Below the pieces are notes generated by a model that saw only the letters and a program-made list of their open reading frames with translations, made no database searches and had not been told where the DNA came from. 33,565 bases of DNA. Source: Opitutia bacterium. Its GTDB lineage: Bacteria > Verrucomicrobiota > Verrucomicrobiia > Opitutales > Seribacteraceae. The first letter of the stretch is position 1, and each line of letters starts with the position of its first letter. The translations under genes were made by a program, and so were the position numbers. The stretch lies in NCBI GenBank assembly GCA_002726435.1, contig PBSV01000090.1, positions 1 to 33,565 of the forward strand. The letters are read 5' to 3'. Below, one piece after another: positions 30,820-33,358 of this stretch.

Positions 30820-30894
<75 letters not shown>

Positions 30895-30968
30895 AACATG
30901 ATAATTAATATGTTCAAAAACTTTCCTTCTGTCAATCACGAGCAGAAATTCGAAGGATTAAATTGAGC

Positions 30969-31000
30969 AAAGAAAAAGGCCCTCGTTTCCGAGAGCCTTT
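30969..31000 (-). terminator. Rho-independent terminator
   Basis: Minus strand AAAGGCUCUCG-GAAA-CGAGGGCCUUU (11 bp with one U.G, GNRA loop) followed by UUCUUU. Confidence 0.85.
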
Positions 31001-31122
31001 AACTTGTGCTCGTATCAATCTAACATTGATTGAAAGTGGCACCCAGTCCCTCGATTGCCAGGAGGAACTGGGTGATTAAGGTCCTATGCGGTATTGCCAA
31101 GCCGCATATAAAACAAGTTAAA
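30969..31122 (-). ncRNA. Candidate structured RNA (3' UTR-derived or independent sRNA): closed multibranch fold plus terminator
   Basis: 10-bp closing helix 31113-31122/30998-31007 encloses three hairpins (31085-31108, 31040-31074, 31015-31033) followed by the terminator; two loops share UGGCAAU; the plus-strand C.A mismatch becomes G.U on the minus strand. Confidence 0.55.
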
Positions 31123-31167
31123 CATATTTTTTAAATTTTGGTTAACCTGAAACAAACAAACAAGACC

Positions 31168-33297
31168 CTAAAAATCGAATTCCATACCGATGCTCCAAAT
31201 TCTTGGTGCACCAACCCGATAACCATCGGGAAGAACGCTGTGAACATAAACTTCGTCCGTAACATTCGATACTTTTGAAAACATTGAGACGCCCTCCTTC
31301 AGTTTATAGAAAGCAGACCAATTCAATATGCCATAAGAATCAATTGTGTCAGTATTTTCACCATTAGCAAAAACTGAATCTTGGTAATGGTAATTTAAGT
31401 AAGTACTCGCTTTTTCTCCTTCCAAGCCTGCTCTTAAATTAAGCATAAAATCAGGGATAAAGGGAAATTCATTTCCAGCAACTGCATTCTTAAGATATCC
31501 TGATAAAGGTGAGGTAGCAGATTCAAACTCCGTGTCGGTAAAGGTAGCAGAAACTGATACTGGTATCCCTAATCCGGAATCATCTCCAATATCCGTTGCG
31601 ACTAATATTTCTACACCGCTAATGCTTCCTTCTCCCACATTTGCAGAGCCTGCGGCACCTCCAGATAATGAGCTGAGAATAAGCATATCTTCAAGACTGG
31701 TGTGGAAATAGGCGATTTCATAAAAAACATCACCAACAGACCCACGGGCACCAAGTTCAAAATTGAGTGATTTTTCTAAATCAAGACCTTTACCTGTCGA
31801 TGATCCATTATAATCCGCTGCAGATTGAGCGTCTGGAAAAGTATGTCCCTGATGAACTCCACCAAATAGGCTTGATGAATCAGTAAGTTCGTAGCCGAAT
31901 CCAAGACCCAGAAGTGTATTGTCAAGAGTTCTTTCGTACTTACCCTTGTAGGTATATTCGTTGCTAGAGTACCGAATTCCGGGAGATAAAGACAACTTGC
32001 CCAAGTCTACATTGTCAACAATGTAAGCCTCAAATGCTTTAGCGTCTTTGTACGGGTCAACAGGATCTTTAGCAGTAACAGATATTCTGCCAATGCTGGA
32101 ACCGTTAACTTCGTACATATCTTGATGCCATGGATTTTTGATGTAATGATCATCTTGAACCCTAAAACCGAAGTCCAAGTCGTGAATCCCAAGTTCGTAA
32201 TCAAAATTAGCCTGTAAACCTTTGGTTTTGTAACTTCGATCATTCGCTTTAACGGTATAAAATCCAGGGGAAACGCCTCTCAGAATAGCAAAGTCAGTAC
32301 CTGATGAGTTATCATCGTATTCAGTGTCACCACCGTCAAGTTTGTACCAATTACGATTGAATTCATTGTAATAAGCAGTTGCTGACATAGAAAAAGTGTC
32401 AGAAAATTCTTTATTATATCTCAGGTAATATCGTGTTTGATCAGAATTCATATTGTCTTGAGCAGTTCCTGGATACCTGAGGTATGGATTACTGTCCAAA
32501 TCACTTTTTGATAATCCCTGGTAGCTCACGTCAGCATCCAAGTCGGCGCGACCAGCTTTGAATTCAAGGTAATCACCTTCTCCAAATTCGTAGCTTAATT
32601 TAAGAATGAGGTCGGTGTTGGAAATTGGCATGTCATCGTCCATTCTAGAAAGAAAGGTACCGAGTTCTTGCCAACCATCTGAAGTGTGGCTGAAGTATTC
32701 CAATAAATACCCAAGTTTACCACCACCGAAGTCAATTTTTCCACCGGAATAAGCATGTGCAATTTTCTCATTGAAATCGCCATAACTCGCTCTGAGGTAA
32801 GAAGATTGTTCTTCTGGAATTGGAGTTGATAAATAGTTAATGACTCCTCCGGTTGTGTTAGGACCATACTTGAGCGAACTAGACCCCTTTAATACTTCAA
32901 AACCAGCCATACGACCTGCTACAGGAGAATAATAAGCAGCAGGGTCTGCATAAGGGGCAGGAGAAGAGGGAACCCCGTCTTCCATAATGGTGATTTTATT
33001 CGAACGTTCTGGGTCGACACCACGCATGCTGATGTTGGGGAAGAATCCGTATCCAGTTTCAGGGCGGACATACACTCCAGGTACTTGACGAAGAATGTCG
33101 TTAATGTCCGTGTGCATGAACTTACCGAGGTCGGAAGAATCTAGGACTGTTCCCGATCCTTTAAGAGAAGAGACATCGTCTTTTGATCCTATTACATTAA
33201 AAGGGGACAGGTAATCTGTTCCCGAGTCTTGGGCTTGTATGCCTGACGCAAAAATTAGCGTAGCAGTAAGCCCTGATATTATTTGTTTGTGTTTCAT
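31168..33297 (-). CDS. TonB-dependent receptor, FecA-like (ferric siderophore/dicitrate type)
   Basis: 709 aa; signal peptide MKHKQIISGLTATLIFASGIQAQ; plug DINDILRQVPGVYVRPETGYGFFPNISMRGVDPERSNKITIMEDGVPSSPAPYADPAAYYSPVAGRM...EVLKGSSSLKYGPNTTGGVINYLSTPIP; C-terminal aromatic IWSIGMEFDF. Confidence 0.95.
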   Translation of the reverse strand: MKHKQIISGLTATLIFASGIQAQDSGTDYLSPFNVIGSKDDVSSLKGSGTVLDSSDLGKFMHTDINDILRQVPGVYVRPETGYGFFPNISMRGVDPERSNKITIMEDGVPSSPAPYADPAAYYSPVAGRMAGFEVLKGSSSLKYGPNTTGGVINYLSTPIPEEQSSYLRASYGDFNEKIAHAYSGGKIDFGGGKLGYLLEYFSHTSDGWQELGTFLSRMDDDMPISNTDLILKLSYEFGEGDYLEFKAGRADLDADVSYQGLSKSDLDSNPYLRYPGTAQDNMNSDQTRYYLRYNKEFSDTFSMSATAYYNEFNRNWYKLDGGDTEYDDNSSGTDFAILRGVSPGFYTVKANDRSYKTKGLQANFDYELGIHDLDFGFRVQDDHYIKNPWHQDMYEVNGSSIGRISVTAKDPVDPYKDAKAFEAYIVDNVDLGKLSLSPGIRYSSNEYTYKGKYERTLDNTLLGLGFGYELTDSSSLFGGVHQGHTFPDAQSAADYNGSSTGKGLDLEKSLNFELGARGSVGDVFYEIAYFHTSLEDMLILSSLSGGAAGSANVGEGSISGVEILVATDIGDDSGLGIPVSVSATFTDTEFESATSPLSGYLKNAVAGNEFPFIPDFMLNLRAGLEGEKASTYLNYHYQDSVFANGENTDTIDSYGILNWSAFYKLKEGVSMFSKVSNVTDEVYVHSVLPDGYRVGAPRIWSIGMEFDF

Positions 33298-33321: not shown

Positions 33322-33358
33322 TGAGACTCAATCTCAGAATTAATGAGATCCAGTCTCA
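33322..33358 (-). promoter_or_regulatory. Two tandem 7-1-7 inverted-repeat operators (Fur-box-like) upstream of the TonB receptor
   Basis: Plus strand TGAGACTCAATCTCA (33322-33336) and TGAGATCCAGTCTCA (33344-33358), 22 bp centre to centre, 25 bp upstream of the start codon. Confidence 0.6.

Follow-up and report, generated by a model that had tools for sequence, protein, structure and literature searches.

A covarying structured RNA at the 3′ end of an exchangeable TonB receptor gene in marine Verrucomicrobiota, and its possible feedback on the receptor message

Introduction

What is the structured element that lies between a TonB-dependent receptor gene and a tRNA-Asn gene in an uncultured marine member of the Verrucomicrobiota, and what might it do there? 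A preliminary description of this locus proposed a minus-strand RNA of three hairpins, enclosed by a perfect 10-bp closing helix, followed by an intrinsic terminator and belonging to no known family. The window referred to below is the whole 33,565-nt stretch of DNA that was analysed (contig C90); its source genome is 1.6 Mb in size and 62% complete. The element is framed by the following features.

31168..33297, minus strand: TonB-dependent (siderophore-type) receptor, 709 aa (Pfam PF00593 and PF07715), whose 3′ UTR houses the RNA
33322..33336, minus strand: putative Fur-like operator TGAGATTGAGTCTCA, in the receptor promoter region
33282..33290, minus strand: ACAAACAAA, receptor codons 3-5, a 9-bp Watson-Crick complement of the GUUUGUUUGUUU element of the RNA
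30820..30894, minus strand: tRNA-Asn(gtt), the downstream neighbour, with its own promoter TTGACA-17-CATATT at 30935..30907

The receptor also matches TIGR01783 at 1e-48, which is below the cut-off of that family, and its PDB match is FecA. The RNA occupies the interval between the receptor stop (31168) and the tRNA-Asn gene; after it come the terminator and then tRNA-Asn under its own promoter, together with a convergent regulator gene.

Results

Conservation and distribution

That the minus strand encodes a structured RNA is borne out by folding, with the segment 31130..30970(-) giving -60.7 kcal/mol compared with -36.9 +/- 3.9 for dinucleotide shuffles (z = -6.07, 0/200). The sequence contains the three hairpins described earlier and also the terminator with its GAAA loop, on which a terminator scan agrees. 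The proposal that the RNA matches no known family also stands, since a scan against Rfam (release 15) gives no match at the gathering score. Only tRNA was found in the window, where the highest score below threshold (21.3 bits; the cut-off is 50) was judged to be noise, and the loci of three relatives likewise returned tRNAs only.

The limits of the element have to be redrawn. When relatives are read side by side, conservation starts near the TonB stop codon, and the 5′ end is placed at 31171, ~50 nt upstream of the limit first given. The most conserved single-stranded motif is GUUUGUUUGUUU, which lies just outside the element as originally delimited, and not the UGGCAAU loop emphasised in the preliminary description.

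Conservation in relatives, which had been suggested as a check, was found by BLASTN in five other genomes of the genus. A gapped pattern search added four further copies in three more genomes (two of them in G006) and one chance match within coding sequence (G013:C56, L037). For a wider survey the interval between the TonB receptor and tRNA-Asn was read, with tRNA-Asn as the anchor, in those genomes of the family for which the interval was assembled and the locus returned. Homologues are present in all 21 of the 21 genus genomes with the interval assembled, 15 of them canonical and six variant, and the position after TonB and ahead of tRNA-Asn is constant across the genus. The canonical core (n = 15) makes up groups A, B and C, with G001 diverged. 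The variant group D (n = 6) carries UUUGUUUGUUUC, a rebuilt P2, a P3 with a GGGCAG loop, and P4, and has no P1 (helices as listed below). GUUUGUUUGUUU is kept in 14/14 aligned canonical homologues, with a 1-nt deletion in two, and its counterpart in the variant group and in the sister genus is UUUGUUUGUUU. By inspection, four sister-genus members have UUUGUUUGUU(U) together with a terminator hairpin whose loop is GGGCAA or GGGCAG; another, G041, has no such element.

Searched across 272 genomes of the order, a covariance model finds one match per genome in 12 genus genomes and one marginal match elsewhere, of 26 bits in G050 (L159), which has no element-like context and was judged to be chance. 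The source genome holds no second copy, so that the RNA is single-copy there. A collection-wide pattern scan pointed to ~20 loci in other phyla, none of which the covariance model scored convincingly, and a search of phage DNA gave nothing beyond short terminator-like matches.

Architecture of the RNA

In the revised structure a core helix, P1, encloses the single-stranded GUUUGUUUGUUU and the hairpins P2 and P3, and the hairpin P4 follows the core.

31162..31171, minus strand: P1 5′ strand UUAGGGUCUU, overlapping the TonB stop codon (31168-31170), within which it begins
31150..31161, minus strand: single-stranded GUUUGUUUGUUU, the proposed seed (pairing) region, placed by conservation
31114..31149, minus strand: P2 hairpin, in which CAGGUUAA (31142-31149) pairs with UUAACUUG (31114-31121)
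31086..31107, minus strand: P3 hairpin AUGCGG-CUUGGCAAUA-CCGCAU, with a UUGGCAA loop of which GGCAA is conserved
31076..31085, minus strand: P1 3′ strand AGGACCUUAA, pairing with UUAGGGUCUU, from covariation and folding
31040..31074, minus strand: P4 hairpin of 12 pairs (the second hairpin of the preliminary description)
31015..31033, minus strand: P5 hairpin UCAAUC-AAUGUUA-GAUUGA (the third hairpin of that description), in groups A, C and D only, by inspection
30973..30999, minus strand: intrinsic terminator with a GAAA loop, from folding and the terminator scan

The extended sequence folds at -71.2 kcal/mol, with mean pair probabilities of 0.92 for P1 and 0.95 for P2; in single-sequence folds of four group B members the probability of P2 is low (0.02-0.26). 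The 3′ ends also differ between groups. In group B P4 comes last and is followed by a U-run, so that it looks like a terminator there; P5 and a second terminator come after P4 in groups A, C and D. Most members of groups A, C and D (for example L126 and L119) have a conserved AUGCA or GUGCAU between P5 and the last terminator.

The 10-bp closing helix finds no place in this structure. The sequence that would supply its 5′ strand is taken up by P2 as the 3′ strand there, which leaves the helix a pair probability of 0.000; forcing it to form gives -63.1 compared with -71.2 kcal/mol, a cost of 8 kcal/mol. The relatives compared by eye have not retained it, and its 3′ strand lies in the downstream extension (P5 and the second terminator) that is missing from group B homologues. 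The mild mutual exclusivity envisaged between this helix and the terminator is thus an artefact of placing the start of the element too far downstream. The idea of a loop motif common to two hairpins survives for one of them: GGCAA, GGGCAA or GGGCAG is found in the P3 loop of nearly all homologues and is not generally conserved in P4, the exceptions being G027 and G017, which have GATAA in the P3 loop and GGGCAA in P4.

Covariation

The 14 canonical homologues were aligned by hand around anchors, and the alignment tool retained this alignment for P1-P3. Both the 5′ strand of P1 and P2 are anchored gaplessly to GUUUGUUUGUUU, apart from the one-base deletion within GUUUGUUUGUUU in two rows. Gaps were written as N so that the tool kept the hand-made structural alignment, and minority columns were dropped for the covariance model, which comprises the P1-P3 core; P4 was left out since MAFFT shifted it between groups, and its pair counts are taken from our own alignment.

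In this alignment, which was made with pairing in view and so favours structure, 94.4% of the cells of P1-P3 are paired and 17 of the 30 pairs change on both sides. Double-change cells number 70, compared with 23.1 +/- 3.8 after shuffling (0/500), a control that ignores relatedness. Pairing falls to 44-45% when the partners are slid by one column and is 28-45% over all slides. Double changes occur in five of the 10 pairs of P1, in three pairs of P2 (where 98% of cells are paired) and in nine of the 12 pairs of P3; in P4 all cells of the 12 pairs are standard-paired, mostly with double changes. P1 is formed by UUAGGGUCUU/AGGACCUUAA in the window; its strands in group B are UUAAGACCUA/UAGGUCUUAG, and group C has UUAAGGUCUA/AAGACCUUAA. 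Since several groups have different stem sequences, one inherited change cannot account for the covariation. The RNA structure is under selection, and the strand-specific G-U pairs noticed at the outset, now joined by compensatory change, place it on the minus strand.

Transcriptional setting

A minus-strand promoter scan from the receptor to the RNA found no clear promoter for the RNA alone, which lends no support to the suggestion of an independent sRNA; the scan picked up only the promoter of tRNA-Asn and a weak 9/12 match within the TonB open reading frame as promoter-like sites, and their total equals the shuffle expectation. On the simplest reading the RNA would be the 3′ UTR of the receptor message, as the preliminary description had offered among its possibilities, and its position agrees with this.

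Iron control, the other part of that suggestion, is hinted at by the Fur-like box TGAGATTGAGTCTCA, which we take as a Fur box by resemblance. With at most one mismatch allowed, sites of this type occur once in the source genome and once in G016, while G027 and G008 each have two at the receptor promoter and two elsewhere; the box is nearly private to the receptor promoter. One further box, TGAGATTCAGTCTCA, lies in L238 (G027:C60:91239), 66 nt upstream of the gene for a coiled-coil periplasmic-type protein that presumably resembles the DUF3450 proteins of TonB/ExbB energy-transduction loci, suggesting a small shared regulon.

Exchange of the receptor

The receptors found at this locus belong to two classes that are about 20% identical. 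The sigma-54 regulator next door sorts the genomes into the same four groups as the RNA (A, B, C and D), and the receptor classes cut across these groups. Between G027 and G017 the regulator is 96% identical and the DNA is 92-100% identical in two stretches, one spanning -200 to +100 and the other beginning at the stop codon, with receptor proteins that are about 57% identical. The reverse is seen between G025 and G008, for which the body is 80-98% identical in most bins and the flanks about 30-60%. The crossing of receptor classes over the RNA and regulator groups, together with these opposite identities of body and flanks, implies that the receptor body has been exchanged between a fixed leader plus signal peptide and a fixed 3′ RNA. 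The low receptor identities of G011 are unreliable, its predicted C-terminus being frame-disrupted by ambiguous bases.

More generally, the leader, signal peptide, 3′ RNA, tRNA-Asn and sigma-54 regulator follow the species tree, and the receptor locus is hypervariable. G006 has two receptor alleles with nearly the same RNA and tRNA-Asn (L034 and L042, on two contigs of which one ends at the tRNA), reflecting either strain variation or duplication. Extra sequence lies between the RNA and tRNA-Asn in G011 (~1.3 kb; L003/L108) and G022 (~0.2 kb; L004/L109), with a common remnant beside tRNA-Asn, and perhaps stems from an element integrated at the tRNA.

Complementarity to the receptor leader

The start region of the receptor gene reads ..CACACAAACAGCCAAAUGAAACACAAACAAAUAA.., a CA-rich leader without a clear Shine-Dalgarno sequence. 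In the region from -60 to +25, the 23 receptors of the locus have a mean longest Watson-Crick match to the element of 8.1 nt, compared with 5.93 +/- 0.24 for dinucleotide shuffles (maximum 6.74 of 500) and 4.74 for 50 other open reading frame starts. The sdhC starts of 25 genomes average 4.68, and eight non-cognate TonB genes from three genomes give matches of 4-6, versus 8-10 for three cognate receptors. These low values for sdhC and the non-cognate receptors show the CA-rich complementary leader to be a feature of the receptor that carries the 3′ RNA rather than of TonB genes at large.

How much of this match is due to composition? Scrambled elements match the same CA-rich leaders equally well in 52/2000 trials (P about 0.026), and composition accounts for part of the match. 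The Watson-Crick statistic, with its shuffle, other-gene and scrambled-element controls, was adopted after a sliding duplex-energy scan had failed, the leader not being the top site in most loci; duplex energies do not discriminate because G-U pairing lets many sites score well. Since the statistic was chosen after the first had failed, the scrambled-element control is the fairest single number. The leader duplex is A-U rich and weak. Group B receptors match over only 6-8 nt, 6 being the shuffle level, and four of the five are at or near that level; G001, in which GUUUGUUUGUUU is lost, has a match of 6, among the weakest. The site of the match shifts between -43 and +11 relative to the start codon and the match is nevertheless retained, a wandering more easily explained by pairing than by constraints from coding or ribosome binding. 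About 10 ACAAACAAAY sites, counting both strands and including that of the receptor, occur in the source genome, one other being at a start codon. We regard the leader match as real and a function for it as likely.

Discussion

What could a structured RNA at the end of a receptor message achieve? The reading that we favour, tentatively and at a little below an even chance, is that a structured 3′-UTR RNA feeds back on its own receptor message through pairing between GUUUGUUUGUUU and the leader. The element would be the structured 3′ UTR of an iron-receptor mRNA, whether set free as an sRNA or still attached to the message, in which P1, P2 and P3 would keep GUUUGUUUGUUU single-stranded and exposed. 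Acting either in cis or in trans, GUUUGUUUGUUU would then pair with the CA-rich leader of its own message and with the codons that open the reading frame (ACAAACAAA), and this pairing would hinder translation initiation, mark the message for decay, or both. The circuit would amount to negative feedback on receptor synthesis once low iron has de-repressed the promoter. It builds on a covarying structure, a fixed position, a single copy, complementarity and receptor exchange, to which we add, by inference, transcription of the RNA, GUUUGUUUGUUU-leader pairing, translational repression and iron control. Because the receptor body between the leader and the 3′ RNA is exchangeable, such feedback would work for any installed allele. 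A bolder form of this idea, which we consider conceivable though rather doubtful, is a 'universal receptor socket': a species-fixed leader and structured 3′ RNA would form a feedback loop round an interchangeable TonB body, and unrelated receptors (about 20% identical) plugged into it would fall at once under the same iron promoter and RNA brake, without detectable Hfq.

Several other explanations account for some of the same observations. A 3′-UTR-derived sRNA might act in trans and have other messages as its main targets, using the GGGCAA loop of P3, GUUUGUUUGUUU or both, with the own-leader match secondary. The P3 loop (GGCAA, GGGCAA or GGGCAG) is indeed almost as conserved as GUUUGUUUGUUU, across groups with wholly different stems, and in G016 (L190) the sequence AAACAAACAAAC, a 12-nt complement of the element, lies immediately upstream of the sdhC start. 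That match is missing in 24 of 25 genomes, however, so that sdhC was rejected as an iron-sparing target; in the source genome the complement is found at only one other start codon, and a search of a few genomes with one motif gave no conserved second target. The trans-acting reading seems unlikely to us. We give a similarly small chance to the view that the 3′-end structure serves solely for termination, protection from 3′ exonucleases and insulation from tRNA-Asn. P4 and the final hairpin are GC-rich, U-runs follow them in various members, and groups A, C and D have two consecutive terminator-like hairpins, as this view would predict; but such roles need no invariant 12-nt single strand, no invariant loop, and no P1 and P2 conserved by compensation.

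A sensor in the 3′ UTR, in which the GGGCAA loop or the three-way junction would bind a small ligand or a protein, seems improbable to us, even though such a junction, combined with a loop and a single strand that are conserved, is an architecture of the binding type. A protein partner other than Hfq could also be needed, for the Hfq family PF17209 was unmatched in five genomes (completeness 92% or more in four), with five of 14 control genomes positive. Against a sensor, aptamers usually contain dense invariant purines, which are missing from the junction core; P1 is absent in group D; and the transcript of the RNA holds no following gene to control, as a riboswitch or cis-acting leader would have, tRNA-Asn having its own promoter. 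Least credible of all, and very improbable, is that the conserved stretch acts as DNA, providing a fixed right-hand homology block for receptor-swapping recombination. Receptor bodies have been exchanged between a conserved leader and a conserved 3′ RNA, which is what such a block would allow, but the compensatory changes, together with G-U pairs that form on one strand only, call for selection acting at the level of RNA. Moreover, the G025 and G008 flanks are about 30-60% identical against 80-98% for the body; blocks that differ between groups that exchanged receptors cannot have been the homology in those transfers.

Feedback of the kind that we favour has counterparts in other bacteria. OppZ and CarZ of Vibrio cholerae are autoregulatory sRNAs that derive from 3′ UTRs, are cut free by RNase E and repress their own transcripts (Hoyos et al. 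2020, PMC7398697). The present RNA, like them, lies in the 3′ UTR of the mRNA that it would regulate, starting here at the TonB stop codon, and ends at the intrinsic terminator of that mRNA; its complementarity to the same transcript, weak in group B and partly a matter of composition, may be a further parallel. It is unlike them in being larger, multi-helix and covarying, and in a genus where Hfq was not found, and the sequence, host phylum and gene are unrelated. Since it is known here from sequence alone, and since a host gene for Hfq, expected of an Hfq-dependent sRNA, was not detected, we do not assign it to the OppZ/CarZ class. Direct 5′-3′ UTR pairing is known for the icaR mRNA of Staphylococcus aureus (Ruiz de los Mozos et al. 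2013, PMC3868564), whose 3′-UTR motif is a C-rich anti-Shine-Dalgarno sequence that covers the Shine-Dalgarno sequence and creates an RNase III site (PMC3868564). The present RNA would resemble it in having a motif within the 3′ UTR that can pair with the region where translation of its own mRNA starts. The motif described here is G/U-rich, faces a CA-rich leader and is embedded in a conserved three-helix domain, and its match falls on CA-rich sequence at -43 to +11, where no Shine-Dalgarno sequence is covered.

GcvB, a free-standing Hfq-bound sRNA with dozens of targets, uses a G/U-rich R1 seed between hairpins that faces C/A-rich leaders. The present RNA would offer a similar G/U-rich single-stranded seed between hairpins to a C/A-rich leader, but it has one conserved target found and is part of the transcript of that target. 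Iron-sparing sRNAs of the RyhB type are made under low iron and pair with mRNAs for iron proteins such as sdhC. The present RNA would likewise be produced when iron is scarce, provided that the Fur-like box functions as a Fur box; no conserved iron-protein target was found for it, with the sdhC leaders unmatched in 24/25 genomes.

The RNA thus represents an undescribed structured family, with covariation support, from uncultured marine Verrucomicrobiota, and the literature searched held no comparable structured 3′-UTR RNA in this phylum. It is tied to a receptor locus at which the protein has repeatedly been exchanged and both regulatory flanks have stayed in place. It offers a concrete, mutable pairing hypothesis of 9-12 nt, and a case for how RNA feedback could work without detectable Hfq. 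Finally, the turnover of receptors at a fixed socket may bear on siderophore piracy and on escape from phages or bacteriocins in the ocean.
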